A stretch of DNA of 64,000 bases from Acidobacteriaceae bacterium (GTDB lineage: Bacteria; Acidobacteriota; Terriglobia; Terriglobales; Acidobacteriaceae): the NCBI GenBank assembly GCA_003151335.1, contig PLXE01000120.1:1-64000 (forward strand), read 5' to 3'. Position numbers and translations under genes: made by a program. The notes beneath the pieces were generated by a model. It had not been told where the DNA came from. It saw only the letters and a program-made list of their open reading frames with translations, and did no database searches. Below are positions 39,923 to 45,932 of the stretch, piece after piece (the first letter of the stretch is position 1; each line of letters begins with the position of its first letter).

Positions 39923-40187
39923 TCGATTACGGAGGCCACTTTAGATTACCGCTCGAATGGACCAACTTTTGAACCTGCCTACAAGGTGACTCACCCTCTG
40001 AAGGCCAGCACCGACCCGTCGTCTGTTTCTTGGGCGCCTCTTTTGCTGGTTTAGGGGACATTTCTGTTCATCCCACCCAGGCGATGCAACTTATTATTTT
40101 CCGCTTGCTTCTGTAGGAAGAGGAGTAAAATTGCATTAAAGGAATGTAGCTGCGGATGGGAATCGCTCCCTCCGGAGAGGCCTTTGC

Positions 40188-41228
40188 ATGAACGTGCATT
40201 TCAGCTACAAGATTTCGAAAACTTCCGACCTCGAAAAACTAATCAACCAACAAGTGGAAAAGCTGGGCCGATACCTCCGGGTGTTCCGTCCCGACCTCGT
40301 GCACCTGAAAGGGCTTATCGAAGACAGCTCTGCACGCGAAGGCGTGGTGGTGTCGCTCAACCTGCGACTGCCGTCGGGCCAGATGGCGGCGCAGGAGCAC
40401 AGCCCAACCGCAACGGCTGCCATCAAAGCCGCCTTCGATTCCCTTGCCGAGCAGGTCAAGAAGCATAAGGAGTTGCTGCGCAACCATCACAAGTTCGGGC
40501 GCCGTCGCGGTCCGGAGCGGGTTGTGGTTCAGACCGTGCCCTTCGCAGACACGCTGGCGGCGATGAAGCCGGAGCGAATTTCCGCCGATGATATCTCCGG
40601 CTATGTCAACGTCAATCTGCCGCGTCTGCAACGCTTCATTCAACGAGAGATCGACTACCGCGAGAGCCAGGGGCAACTCGAGCCCGGCCAGCTTGCGGTG
40701 GAGGATGTGGTGGGGGAAGCGATTGCAAACGCCCTCAGCGAGCAGGGCGAGAGTCCAGAACGCATGAAGCTGGAGCCCTGGGTGCATCGGCTGGCGAAGC
40801 AGGCGATTGACCAGCTGGCGTCGGAGAACCGCGAGGACGGGCACGTCCCGCTGGAACGCTCGCACGGCCAGCAGAACGTGCATGCCAGCGATGAGGACAA
40901 GCTGCAATTCCATCAGCCCGACGAGCAGTTGTCGGAAGAGAATGTCATTCCCGACCCCACCGCCAACAATCCGGAAGAGCTGGCAGCGCGAGACGAACTG
41001 ATGACCCTGGTAGAGACGACCCTGCGCGATGCCGGGCACGACCAGGCCGAAGCTTTCATCCTGTACACGCTCGAAGGCTTCACCCTGGAAGAGATCGCCG
41101 ATATCACCAGCCGCGGTGCGGAGGAGGTGCGCATGTCCATTCGCAAGGCCCGCGAACATTTGCAACGCGCCTTGCCTATCAAAGATCCGCTCAAAGAAAA
41201 GCTCGTGGAGTATTCCAAGAGCGCCTGA
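40188..41228 (+). CDS. Ribosome hibernation factor (HPF/RaiA) fused to sigma-70-like domains
   Basis: 346 residues in one uninterrupted frame; GGAGAGG about 9 bases before the ATG. Residues 1-100 are an HPF/RaiA (S30AE) domain, starting MNVHFSYKISKTSDLEKLIN and passing through VVVSLNLRLPSGQM and ATAAIKAAFDSLAEQVKKHK. Residues ~138-214 resemble sigma region 2 (LAVEDVVGEAIANAL, then LEPWVHRLAKQAIDQLASEN). Residues ~268-328 resemble sigma region 4 with a helix-turn-helix (AEAFILYTLEGFTLEEIADI then VRMSIRKAREHLQ). The joining segment 101-137 is basic. HPF domains bind the 30S decoding channel; sigma domains bind RNA polymerase and DNA. It could be a ribosome-responsive sigma-like regulator or an HPF using the helical part for another contact. 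It lies 68 bases upstream of the baeRF gene and after a terminator. Confidence 0.85.
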   Translation: MNVHFSYKISKTSDLEKLINQQVEKLGRYLRVFRPDLVHLKGLIEDSSAREGVVVSLNLRLPSGQMAAQEHSPTATAAIKAAFDSLAEQVKKHKELLRNHHKFGRRRGPERVVVQTVPFADTLAAMKPERISADDISGYVNVNLPRLQRFIQREIDYRESQGQLEPGQLAVEDVVGEAIANALSEQGESPERMKLEPWVHRLAKQAIDQLASENREDGHVPLERSHGQQNVHASDEDKLQFHQPDEQLSEENVIPDPTANNPEELAARDELMTLVETTLRDAGHDQAEAFILYTLEGFTLEEIADITSRGAEEVRMSIRKAREHLQRALPIKDPLKEKLVEYSKSA

Positions 41229-41296
41229 CAATCATGGGACTGCCCGGCAGTTCCCCGCTTTTATGATGCAAGAGATCATCCATGAGGAGAAGCGGA

Positions 41297-42463
41297 ATGA
41301 TCACACGAGATGACATCCGAGAACTGGCTAATTTTCACTCGCCGGAAACTTGCGCGGTTACTTTTTACTACCAGCCCACGACACCCCTGAATAAGTCGCA
41401 CCGCGAAGAATCGATCCTGGTCAAGGACCTGGTTCGCAATGCGCTGCGCGACGCGGAGAAGCACGGCAGAAATGGCTGTGCCCGCCCCGATCTGGATCGC
41501 ATCCAGGGCATGGCCGAAGGTCTGCGCGGAAATGGCGGCAAAGCCAAGGCAATTTTTGCCTGCAGCAAACAAGGTCTGTGGCGCGAGTTTGACATTCCCG
41601 CGCAATTACTCAAGACCAACCTTTTCGTGAGCCACCGCTTTCATCTGAAGCCCCTGGCCGCGGTGCTGGACGGGGTGCAACATGCCTGCGTGGTACTGGT
41701 GGACCGCACCAAGGCCCGCATCTTTGAACTGGTAAACGACGAAATCGTGGAGAAGCAGGACTTCGTCAATGAACTCACCCGGCGCGGCAAGAGCGATGGC
41801 TGGCGCGGCTATGATGCCGGCCATGTCGAGCGCAAGCAGATGAACGAAGCTCTGCAGCACTTCAAGACGGTGGCGGATTGCATTGAGCCCTATTTCGAGC
41901 GCAAGAGTTGCGATCGATTGCTGATCGGCTGCCATGATGACGTTTGGCCCGAGATCCATCGCGAACTACACTCGAACTCCAAGCAGCGCTTGGTGGGACA
42001 TTTCCGCATTGACCCAAAGGTCGCGACCCCCGACCAGACCAAGCAGATGGCGACAGAGCAGCTCACGCAATACAACTCCCGCTTACAACAGGGCCTGATC
42101 CACGAGGTGATCGGCGAAGCCCATCGCAATGGCCGCGGCGCGATTGGTTTGCGACGGGTTTTACGTTCGTTGGAGACCGGCGAAGTGCAAACCCTTCTGC
42201 TGGGATCGAACTTCCAGGCGTCGGGAGTGAAGTGCCACCACTGCGGTCACATGGACCTGCATGATGCGCCGGTGTGCGCGGTTTGCGGGAAAGAGAACAC
42301 GCAACTGGAAGACATCGGCGATGCCATCGTAGGATATGCGATTCGGAATGGCATCGATATTGTGTACATCGCCGACGACGAGCAGTTCGATCAGATCGGA
42401 CGAATCGCGGCCCTGCTGCGCTTCCGCGCCGACCAGAACACCTCGGTGAAAGCGGCCAGCTAA
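41297..42463 (+). CDS. Bacterial archaeo-eukaryotic release factor-like (baeRF) protein
   Basis: 388 residues from ATG 41297 (MITRDDIRELANF), placed by GAGGAG about 8 bases upstream; an ATG at 41282 overlaps that site. Layout follows the eRF1/Dom34-like families: an N-terminal domain, then a middle domain VVLVDRTKARIFELVNDEIV and CDRLLIGCHDDVWPEIHREL. The C-terminal L7Ae-like part reads GEVQTLLLGSNFQASGVK with an inserted zinc ribbon (CHHCGH...CAVCG) and ends DIVYIADDEQFDQIGRIAAL. The eRF1 GGQ loop is not seen. Bacterial members are predicted to act in ribosome rescue or peptide release. Co-orientation with the HPF-sigma gene supports a translation-stress role. Confidence 0.8.
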   Translation: MITRDDIRELANFHSPETCAVTFYYQPTTPLNKSHREESILVKDLVRNALRDAEKHGRNGCARPDLDRIQGMAEGLRGNGGKAKAIFACSKQGLWREFDIPAQLLKTNLFVSHRFHLKPLAAVLDGVQHACVVLVDRTKARIFELVNDEIVEKQDFVNELTRRGKSDGWRGYDAGHVERKQMNEALQHFKTVADCIEPYFERKSCDRLLIGCHDDVWPEIHRELHSNSKQRLVGHFRIDPKVATPDQTKQMATEQLTQYNSRLQQGLIHEVIGEAHRNGRGAIGLRRVLRSLETGEVQTLLLGSNFQASGVKCHHCGHMDLHDAPVCAVCGKENTQLEDIGDAIVGYAIRNGIDIVYIADDEQFDQIGRIAALLRFRADQNTSVKAAS

Positions 42464-43841: not shown

Positions 43842-44999
43842 TCACACCGCGACCGTCACCGTCGTCTCCGTGCGCGTCACTGGCCGGTAGAGCGTGTCGC
43901 GCTCGAAGGGGACGCGGCCGGCTTCCGTGATAAGGCGAATCAAATCCTGGCGGCGTAGCATTTGCGGCGTCGTGGCTCCGGCGTCATGATAGATCTTCTC
44001 CTCCACCACAGTTCCGTCAATGTCGTCGGCGCCGAAGCGCAGCGTGATCTGCGCCATCTTGGGCGTCACCATCTGCCAGTACGACTTGATGTGCGGGAAG
44101 TTGTCGAGCACCAGCCGCGACACCGCGATCTGTTTCAGGTCGAGCATGCCGGTGGTTTTGGGCAGATGCTGCAGCGGTGTGTTGTCGGGATGAAACGCCA
44201 GCGGGATGAATGTCTGGAAGCCATGCGTGTCGTCCTGTAGCGCGCGCAGCTTCAGCAGATGATCGACGCAATCCTCATCGTTCTCGACGTGCCCGTAGAG
44301 CATGGTCGCGTTTGACTTCAGGCCGACTTCATGCGCGGTACGCGCCAGTTGAAGCCAGTCGTAGCCATCGATCTTGTGGTCGCAGATGATGTGCCGGATG
44401 CGGTCGGAAAAAATCTCGGCGCCGCCGCCGGGCATGGAGTCGAGCCCCGCTTCTTTAAATTTGACCAGCACCTGGCGCGGCGTCATCTTGCCAATCTTCG
44501 AAAAGAATGCGATCTCGACCATGGTGAACGCCTTGAGATGCACCTGCGGAAATCGCTCCTTCAAGCCCGCGATCAGATCGACGTAGTACTGGAATGGCAG
44601 GTCGGCGTGCAGGCCGCCGACAATGTGAAACTCCGTAATCGCTTCGCTGTAGCCGGAAGCAGCGGTGTTCCAGACTTCTTCCAGTGCCATGGTGTAGGCA
44701 CCGGGGGAGTCCTTCTTGCGGCCAAATGCGCACAGGCGGCAGGCGGCCACGCAGACATTGGTGTAGTTAATGTGGCGGTTGACGTTGAAATAGGCGATGT
44801 CACCGTGCATCCGTTCGCGAACGTGATTCGCCAGCCAGCCGATCGCCAGGATGTCACCGGAGCGGTAGAGCGCCAGCGCGTCGTCGGCCGACAGGCGTTC
44901 CTGTGCCATCACTTTGTCGTGAATTGGCGCCAGGCAAGGGTCGTCGGTCTGAAAGGGATGGAGCTTCTTGGCGCTAGTCATCTGCGAGGCGGTGGACAT
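43842..44999 (-). CDS. mqnE: Aminodeoxyfutalosine synthase (radical SAM)
   Basis: 385 residues from ATG 44999; an ATG 12 codons upstream (45035) is possible, and neither has a strong ribosome site. The radical SAM cluster motif CVAACRLCAF (Cys-x3-Cys-x2-Cys) lies in the segment YTNVCVAACRLCAFGRKKDS. Later come TEFHIVGGLHADLPF and SMPGGGAEIFSDRIR, characteristic of MqnE. It builds aminodeoxyfutalosine in the futalosine menaquinone route. It lies downstream of the UbiA-type prenyltransferase gene on the same strand. Confidence 0.93.
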   Translation of the reverse strand: MSTASQMTSAKKLHPFQTDDPCLAPIHDKVMAQERLSADDALALYRSGDILAIGWLANHVRERMHGDIAYFNVNRHINYTNVCVAACRLCAFGRKKDSPGAYTMALEEVWNTAASGYSEAITEFHIVGGLHADLPFQYYVDLIAGLKERFPQVHLKAFTMVEIAFFSKIGKMTPRQVLVKFKEAGLDSMPGGGAEIFSDRIRHIICDHKIDGYDWLQLARTAHEVGLKSNATMLYGHVENDEDCVDHLLKLRALQDDTHGFQTFIPLAFHPDNTPLQHLPKTTGMLDLKQIAVSRLVLDNFPHIKSYWQMVTPKMAQITLRFGADDIDGTVVEEKIYHDAGATTPQMLRRQDLIRLITEAGRVPFERDTLYRPVTRTETTVTVAV

Positions 45000-45029
45000 C
45001 TTCTTAATGATATCGCAGGGAGCCGTTGA

Positions 45030-45068: not shown

Positions 45069-45932
45069 TCACCGTGCCAGCATCCGGTCTCCGGCAATGA
45101 AGAACAGGAATGCCATCGATACCAGGCCGTTCATGGTGAAGAAGGCGGCGTTCACCCCGCTGAGGTCGTCGTGCTTTACCAACGAGTGCTCATAGATCAA
45201 CAGCAGAACGACGAACACCACGCCAGCCGACGCAATCTTCCCCAACCCAAACGCCACCACCATCCACGTCAGCAGCAGAACAGTGATTACGTGGAAGAGC
45301 CTGGCGATGTTCAGAGAAGTACGAATACCGAAGGCCTTGGGAACTGAGTAGACGTCGGCGGAGCGGTCGAAGTCGAAATCCTGGCAGCTATAGAGGATGT
45401 CGAAGCCGGCGCCCCAAAACACCACGGCGGCGGCCAGGATCAGGATGCGGGGATCGAGCGAACCGCGGACCGCGATCCAGGCAGCGGCCGGAGCGGTGCC
45501 CATCGCGAGTCCAAGCACAATGTGCGCCCAGCGCGTGAATCGTTTACTGAAGGAGTACAGCAAGATGATGGCGAGTGCGACCGGAGAAAGGTAAAACGCC
45601 AGCGGATTCAGTTGATAGGCAGCGAAGATCAGGATGGCCGATGCGACTACGACGAACCAGCTCACAAACGACTTGCTCAACTTGCCGGACGGAAGCGCGC
45701 GAACGCGAGTGCGTGGATTGGCCGCATCGATGCTTGCATCTACCAGCCGATTGAAGGCCATGGCCGCCGAGCGCCCCGCCACCAACGCGACAATGATCCA
45801 AATCGACGTGTGCAGGCTGGGAATGCCACGTGCCGCCAGCACGGCGCCGGTCAAACCAAACGGGAGCGTGAGCACGGAGTGCTCCCACTTGATCATCTCC
45901 AGGGTGGTGCCAACGCTGCGCAACAGGGCCAC
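45069..45932 (-). CDS. mqnP: UbiA-family prenyltransferase of menaquinone synthesis
   Basis: 287 residues, about eight membrane segments. The two Asp-rich prenyl-diphosphate motifs are NRLVDASID and DFDFDRSADVYSVP. UbiA relatives make many products; adjacency to mqnE indicates the futalosine-pathway enzyme that attaches the polyprenyl tail. About 70 bases separate it from mqnE. Confidence 0.88.
   Translation of the reverse strand: MALLRSVGTTLEMIKWEHSVLTLPFGLTGAVLAARGIPSLHTSIWIIVALVAGRSAAMAFNRLVDASIDAANPRTRVRALPSGKLSKSFVSWFVVVASAILIFAAYQLNPLAFYLSPVALAIILLYSFSKRFTRWAHIVLGLAMGTAPAAAWIAVRGSLDPRILILAAAVVFWGAGFDILYSCQDFDFDRSADVYSVPKAFGIRTSLNIARLFHVITVLLLTWMVVAFGLGKIASAGVVFVVLLLIYEHSLVKHDDLSGVNAAFFTMNGLVSMAFLFFIAGDRMLAR

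Follow-up and report, generated by a model that had tools for sequence, protein, structure and literature searches.

Long hibernation-promoting factors (HPFs) of the Lactococcus, Bacillus and Staphylococcus type carry an N-terminal S30AE domain, a linker and a C-terminal module, Ribosom_S30AE_C. Resemblance to sigma factors is found in PhyR, whose sigma2/sigma4-like domain functions as a protein mimic. Sigma mimics are already known, as are HPFs joined to other modules, among them HibA, an archaeal HPF-CBS fusion (as outlined in the part of PMC13324472 drawn on here). Gene neighborhoods that unite baeRF/Balon with HPF/RaiA are known as well (PMC6514570, PMC10901736, both in excerpt), and the legend of Fig. 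2 in the latter paper names alternative sigma70 factors, Hsp20, DnaK and HdeD as operon neighbors of Balon; the portions of these two papers used here do not mention an HPF-sigma fusion. Heat-resistance islands (LHR/tLST) carry a gene called orf11 (PMC8290217, PMC8407380, PMC5383660, each in part).

Here, we describe a protein with an HPF/RaiA domain followed in the same frame by a sigma2-linker-sigma4 part, encoded in a 64,000-nucleotide stretch of Acidobacteriaceae DNA (the window; GenBank assembly GCA_003151335.1, contig PLXE01000120.1). It shares the layout of long HPFs, but its C-terminal module is sigma-like and the HPF domains of the two kinds group apart. Known HPF tails dimerize in bacteria or form a CBS module in archaea, as in HibA (PMC13324472, in excerpt), and a sigma-like tail in bacteria follows a different logic. 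Compared with PhyR, the fusion lacks a receiver domain and has an HPF domain and a QPDE linker motif. With ECF and group 3 sigma factors (SigG1, 7qh5; 6pfv) it has region 2 and region 4 sequence and fold in common, but it has lost the region 2.2 glutamine and most DNA-contact positions and is acidic on average. The family was followed through Acidobacteriota genomes, plasmids, phages, viral contigs and complete Escherichia coli genomes.

The fusion gene (40188-41228, + strand, as are all features of the gene given below) is a single frame of 346 codons, open from ATG to stop without interruption, which encodes 346 amino acids and has full-length relatives. The HPF/RaiA (S30AE) domain (residues 1-106; 40188-40505; net charge, +7) was recognized by its fold and by Pfam Ribosomal_S30AE at residues 9-96 (E 8e-10; 39.8 bits, above the cut-off of 23.7); NCBIfam yfiA reached 30.7 bits, below its cut-off of 40.9, and PF16321 (Ribosom_S30AE_C) was absent among the Pfam matches of the protein. 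The acidic sigma2-like helices follow (residues 134-213; 40587-40826; model helices 133-160, 171-183 and 195-213), in which Gly176 takes the place of the region 2.2 glutamine in the sigma alignment. A low-pLDDT linker with the motif LQFHQPDEQLSEENVIPD (residues 239-256; 40902-40955) leads to a sigma4-like helix-turn-helix (HTH) domain (residues 262-327; 40971-41168), which was identified with Pfam, NCBIfam, the AlphaFold2 model and fold comparison. The NCBIfam sigma70-ECF model (TIGR02937) matched residues 143-329 with 43.1 bits, barely above its cut-off of 42.9, and the Pfam sigma region 4 models at residues 285-326 fell slightly under theirs (Sigma70_r4_2, 24.7 versus 25.7).

An AlphaFold2 model was built from 12 sequences (the window and named loci; structure alignment A1, which omits L041 as shortened and L038 for an undetermined residue). 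It was of moderate confidence (mean pLDDT, 69.4; pTM, 0.45), with the relative placement of the domains undefined, and comprised three folded parts (residues 1-100, 133-213 and 262-327) and low-confidence connecting stretches at about 101-129 and about 216-258. Residues 1-95 have the HPF fold (4hei_B; Z 15.3; rmsd, 1.4; 89 aligned), and residues 132-332 have the sigma2/sigma4 arrangement (5uxx_C; Z 12.2; rmsd, 5.0; 149 aligned). A Z-score under about 13 is on its own weak for helical folds, so the sequence match matters for the sigma assignment. In profile comparisons of the Acidobacteriota halves, the HPF half matched 30 long HPFs with 94.7% and the sigma half 17 sigma factors encoded in the window's genome with 98.8%, against at most 1.4% in crossed controls. 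The sequence-only reading of this DNA had proposed the continuous 346-residue frame, the HPF/RaiA domain and the resemblance to sigma regions 2 and 4 with an HTH, and all three are confirmed, the last two also by the predicted structure. It had also known of no characterized protein like this one, and our search of the literature (open-licence papers) likewise found no description of an HPF-sigma fusion.

The fusion is neither confined to this assembly nor split in all relatives. Of 61 related genomes, 39 carry a full-length copy, distributed as 25/37 in the window's family (f1), 13/14 in a sister family (f2) and 1/10 in the rest of the class; five of the other 22 genomes had a weak sigma match or an HPF-only match, and 17 had nothing. 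The same one-frame architecture was present in 14 named Acidobacteriota metagenome-assembled genome (MAG) contigs, from 16 loci, several of them probably from the same genomes as in the 61-genome set; the two other loci were an HPF alone (L045) and an unrelated weak match (L046). Acidobacteriaceae MAGs are the closest named relatives of the window fusion (95% identity). A draw of 396 Acidobacteriota genomes gave 27 matches at E ≤ 1e-12, three of which were sigma-only (G069, G198 and G336) and 24 the fusion, whole or contig-cut, a number that may be an undercount because at most five candidates were scored per genome; 17 of these 24 genomes lie outside the window's family, across nine other families. 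Five rows from this draw have stop codons inside the aligned stretch, with open frames that reach about profile position 330. A split gene or an assembly error was ruled out by the full-length one-frame relatives. In one MAG, the fusion is without a stretch of the sigma2-like part (L041:5001-5981), perhaps through an assembly deletion.

Besides the fusion, the window's genome encodes an ordinary long HPF on contig C23 (G000:C23), with yfiA and PF16321 both above cut-off, which comes after a gene resembling rpoN by eye; this contig is the only place in that genome where PF16321 was found. The sister family (G037-G050; 14 genomes, seven at least 95% complete) differs: every S30AE match lies inside a fusion gene in the 13 genomes that have any, the exception being G046 (82% complete), and none of the 14 genomes had a PF16321 match above cut-off, in a search that was positive for the window's genome. 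With no other S30AE protein found there, the fusion probably acts as the general HPF of that family. In a tree of the HPF domain, 29 fusions and 30 Acidobacteriota long HPFs formed separate groups (support, 99/100), in an alignment of a short domain with long branches flagged and short stand-alone HPFs left out. By this separation, the fusions did not arise recently from the resident long HPF. Short stand-alone S30AE frames occur in several genomes (L045:5001-5366, G059:C684, G055:C2, G001:C76, G003:C206 and G023:C41), and those of L045, G059 and G055 match the HPF half of the fusion; no sigma-like open reading frame (ORF) was found near the L045 frame. They are either ancestors of the fusion or products of tail loss.

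Directly 3' of the fusion and on the same strand is a gene for a baeRF family 10/Balon-type hibernation factor (41297-42463, +; alternative start ATG at 41282), a probable operon partner by adjacency, Pfam match and fold. Its product scored 74.8 bits with Pfam baeRF_family10 (cut-off, 27.1). Six Balon entries had the six best Z-scores against its structure model (mean pLDDT, 66.8), from 21.8 to 17.4 over 330-339 residues (rmsd, 5.8 to 8.2), led by 8v9l_z (Z 21.8; rmsd, 5.8; 337 aligned); archaeal aRF1 (4af1) was lower at Z 13.7, and the order by Foldseek E value placed aRF1 first (5.2e-16) and Balon second (1.6e-15). The GGQ motif is absent, with GYDAGH or GYDGGH in the corresponding loop (placed by eye) of nine aligned rows, and GYDAGH in the window protein is as would be expected of a predicted noncatalytic Balon. 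Among loci of the window's family type, 28 of 35 had this gene next to the fusion on the same strand; it was found at 0 of 5 sister-family loci and at 1 of 17 other Acidobacteriota loci that could be assessed. These counts may miss distant Balons because the search (jackhmmer or phmmer) started from a close homologue. They omit repeat or near-repeat loci (L002, L003, L031-L036, L077, L078 and L081), and L037-L044 were assigned to the window's family by similarity. Some of the sigma70 factors in the Balon figure legend may be members of the HPF-sigma fusion family.

In sigma factors, the region 2.2 glutamine serves core binding, and basic positions in regions 2.4 and 4.2 contact DNA. We aligned 29 fusions (28 rows of alignment A4 and one orf11) with 17 of the 18 sigma factors of the window's genome, L117 being not alignable. 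The region 2.2 glutamine is present in 14 of the 17 sigma factors and in 0 of the 29 fusions, 26 of which have aspartate there. Arginine at position 212 (region 2.4) is found in 14/17 sigma factors versus 6/29 fusions, and at position 313 in the recognition helix threonine (10/17 sigma factors) is replaced by glutamate (16/29 fusions). The region 2.3 asparagine (12/17 sigma factors) and the recognition-helix arginines at 317 and 320 (11/17 and 14/17) are outside the five commonest letters of the fusions. Mean net charges, in ranges that overlap, were -4.2 for fusions versus +2.9 for sigma factors in sigma2, -4.4 versus +1.1 in sigma4 and -0.1 versus +3.4 in the recognition helix. The recognition helix of the window protein retains the basic residues R315, R319, K320 and R322, so DNA binding is possible for this protein.

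Residues at probably buried positions are retained in most fusions (Val314, 24/29; Ala321 and Leu325, 28/29 each; Trp198, 26/29), and conservation across phyla extends to the region 2.2 aspartate, Trp198 and the hydrophobic core of the sigma part. With buried positions kept and signatures lost, the fold is under selection and promoter reading seems to be lost; going by the alignment, the sigma part is probably no promoter-reading sigma factor. Core binding may be weakened too by loss of the region 2.2 glutamine, though the aspartate is nearly fixed (26/29) and region 2.2 is not drifting freely.

The most conserved stretch of the fusions is the linker motif, of the form [FY]xQPDE; in the 28-row family alignment, conservation over 12 residues peaks at FHQPDEQLSEEN (mean majority fraction, 0.68). 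QP[DG][DE] occurs in 44 of 50 unique fusion rows and in 0 of 17 sigma factors. The six rows without it are L099 and five from the sister family, so the motif is not required everywhere. Its second half aligns with the linker DRLSLMDTLED of 6pfv, which we take to be WhiG. In the model, the motif lies in the low-confidence linker between sigma2 and sigma4, as would fit a docking motif.

Outside Acidobacteriota, tblastn matches were found in 25 plasmid records, 17 of them with at least 80% query coverage, from hosts that include Burkholderia, Paraburkholderia, Cupriavidus, Paracoccus, Shinella, Roseomonas, Sphingomonas, Caulobacter and Methylorubrum. The survey of the architecture that the sequence-only reading had called for extends to further Acidobacteriota families and to plasmids of Pseudomonadota. 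Plasmid members are annotated as sigma-70 family, FliA, sigma-28, sigma factor-like or hypothetical proteins. A scan of 10 other members with Pfam S30AE gave seven scores above the cut-off. A second set of eight, made up of five orf11 proteins and three alphaproteobacterial members (19.2-23.0 bits versus 23.7), gave none. On four plasmid stretches from Alphaproteobacteria, the fusion lies directly after an AAA ATPase gene with HdeD nearby, accompanied by Hsp20, MarR and FtsH genes in three of the four and by a cation:proton antiporter in two; the Paracoccus AAA ATPase scored 1603.8 bits with the ClpK model, below the cut-off of 1900. On Burkholderia and Paraburkholderia plasmids (L130 and L134), the fusion is flanked by Hsp20 genes and groES-groEL-dnaK. 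The phage records searched with the Paracoccus member gave no match, and orf11 was not found in viral contigs; a phage origin of the family has no support in either set.

The Paracoccus protein, used as a query, retrieved 85 plasmid records (32 with at least 80% coverage), among them 30 from Acinetobacter and 24 from Klebsiella. In five such regions examined, hdeD-GI (in one, a DUF308 gene) is immediately followed by the match, a hypothetical protein, and in four of them the next gene is trx-GI. These are copies of orf11 (L142:10001-11146, L143:10001-11146, L144:8001-9146, L145:8001-9146 and L146:7253-8398), annotated as hypothetical protein. The five proteins matched the family over 337 columns, colinear over both parts (hhalign; 99.9%; E 1e-36), and matched the Acidobacteriota members alone with 98.6% (5e-16). 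By parts, the N-terminal part matched the HPF part of the family (A4) with 97.4% (1e-11) and the C-terminal part its sigma part (A4) with 99.8% (6e-28), with crossed controls below 1% in both cases. Direct domain matches are absent or weak: Pfam S30AE was not found in four of the five proteins and had E 0.06 in one, NCBIfam gave no match, the N-terminal part reached 1.0% against canonical HPF and 13.7% against the Acidobacteriota HPF part alone, and the C-terminal part reached 12.2% against the sigma factors of the window's genome. The domain labels of orf11 therefore rest on intermediate members of the family. Judged by this full-length profile match, orf11 of LHR/tLST is a divergent member of the HPF-sigma fusion family, with an HPF part so divergent that Pfam alone does not recognize it.

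Among 5,426 complete E. coli genomes, 152 contain a DNA match to orf11, which covers at least 80% of it in 144; among the matches listed, 14 of 15 records annotate it as hypothetical and one as a sigma factor. In LHR2, orf11 is interrupted (PMC5383660, in part). According to the portion of PMC8407380 drawn on here, an orf11 deletion left membrane-lipid oxidation after chlorine unchanged, and a deletion strain in laboratory E. coli K-12 has been published.

Our preferred reading, which we regard as an even call, is that the fusion is a ribosome-hibernation factor with a DNA-blind, partner-docking sigma mimic, most likely acting on RNA polymerase core. By homology, the HPF domain would bind idle 30S and 70S ribosomes; that this half binds ribosomes is very probable. 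The Balon-type product of the next gene probably acts with it on ribosomes, as homology and the operon suggest. The C-terminal module would be a sigma mimic in which the sigma2/sigma4 fold is kept and most promoter contacts are lost, and for that reason we propose that it leaves promoters unread; a role of the tail other than promoter recognition is likely. We propose that the mimic docks to a normal partner of sigma factors by way of the QPDE motif in its linker and of its acidic face at region 2.2; the effect would be to park transcription machinery, or hold it back, beside sleeping ribosomes.

A docking partner present in all bacteria is favored because plasmid-borne members occur in hosts as far apart as E. 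coli, Acinetobacter and Paracoccus. Among the candidates, RNA polymerase core ranks first and is named here tentatively; the ribosome, Balon or the protein itself is a doubtful one, and an anti-sigma factor an improbable one. The picture in full, in which one protein puts to sleep both the ribosomes (with Balon) and the RNA polymerase core (capped by a DNA-blind sigma end) and in which islands carry the family into E. coli, Klebsiella and Acinetobacter as orf11, is speculative and can be considered possible at most.

The alternative that survives best, though still doubtful, is that the tail acts on the ribosome only, by stabilizing the hibernating particle, taking over dimerization from the C-terminal domain of long HPFs, or contacting Balon or EF-Tu, with the sigma fold as a leftover of evolution that is unconnected with transcription. 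Loss of the sigma signature residues would agree with this, as would the Balon-type gene that adjoins the fusion in the window's family type and the sister family, where the lone S30AE protein is the fusion, PF16321 does not exceed its cut-off and the tail may replace the long-HPF C-terminal domain. Against it, a separate long HPF in the window's genome makes replacement unneeded there, and the hydrophobic core, Trp198 and region 2.2 aspartate are conserved across phyla.

The sequence-only reading had also suggested a transcription regulator released when ribosomes wake or stall, that is, a working sigma factor tethered to ribosomes. While its domains stand, a promoter-binding sigma factor set free by ribosomes is weakened, since the residues that grip core and DNA are mostly lost, and we consider it unlikely. 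Its other suggestion, a fusion that brings RNA polymerase and the ribosome together, is the specific version that we favor, at the tentative strength given above for RNA polymerase core. Of six members scanned with the sigma70-ECF model, L131 (48.8 bits) and L084 (64.3 bits) are above the cut-off, as the window protein just is, L104 is at the cut-off (42.9), and several plasmid records annotate members as sigma factors; L130 and L025 are below the cut-off, however, L142 has no match, and the missing region 2.2 glutamine, the lost basic DNA-contact positions and the acidity of the domains on average stand against promoter recognition. Equally unlikely is a PhyR-like anti-anti-sigma role, in which the mimic would sequester a dedicated anti-sigma factor and thereby free a stress sigma factor: the PhyR sigma-like Pfam model is among the matches (cut-off, 27 bits; L087, 33.2, the only one above it in 10 members; L130, 25.6; window, 23.7) and the fold matches of the sigma-like part include NepR-bound sigma RpoE (Z 12.2) and PhyR (9cb6; Z 11.1; rmsd, 3.7), but no response-regulator receiver domain is among the Pfam matches of the window fusion, no anti-sigma gene is annotated in the plasmid stretches examined, and the hosts of the mobile-island members are, to our knowledge, without NepR.

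As a sigma mimic on a hibernation factor, the tail would join the translation and transcription sides of dormancy. Several plasmid genes labeled as sigma factor, FliA or hypothetical protein, orf11 included, are members of this family. Because orf11 of the heat-resistance island belongs to it and a deletion strain has been published (PMC8407380, in part), the question can be tested in E. coli K-12.

A promoter-like element, GGAGTAAAATT (40122-40132, +), precedes the fusion gene; all 25 leaders aligned from relatives contain GGWGTANAAT, 48-65 bases upstream of the start codon. The likely ribosome-binding site is GGAGAGG (40174-40180, +), whose GAGG does not vary among these 25 leaders. The 11-base pattern GGWGTANAATY has 14 copies in the window's genome, against six for the reversed pattern. 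Of the other 13 sites, nine precede an ORF of at least 80 amino acids starting within 300 bases, of kinds that are mixed by eye, and four do not; with such mixed ORFs downstream, a dedicated regulon was rejected and the element taken as a generic promoter. A leader RNA structure was also rejected: single folds hinted at a hairpin upstream of the start codon, which comparison did not support, as RNAalifold found no common base pairs in 25 leaders and the stability of 34 leaders against shuffles (mean z, -0.67) was close to that of an upstream control region (-0.65).

Two near-identical small genes, cytochrome-c-like by eye and with leaders almost alike, lie on two small contigs of the window's genome (L148 and L150; G000:C16 and C39) and are either a recent duplication or an unresolved repeat. 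Elsewhere in the window, the minus strand encodes an aminofutalosine synthase (MqnE, above cut-off; 43842-45002) and a UbiA-type prenyltransferase (45069-45932), a pair indicative of menaquinone synthesis through the futalosine route.
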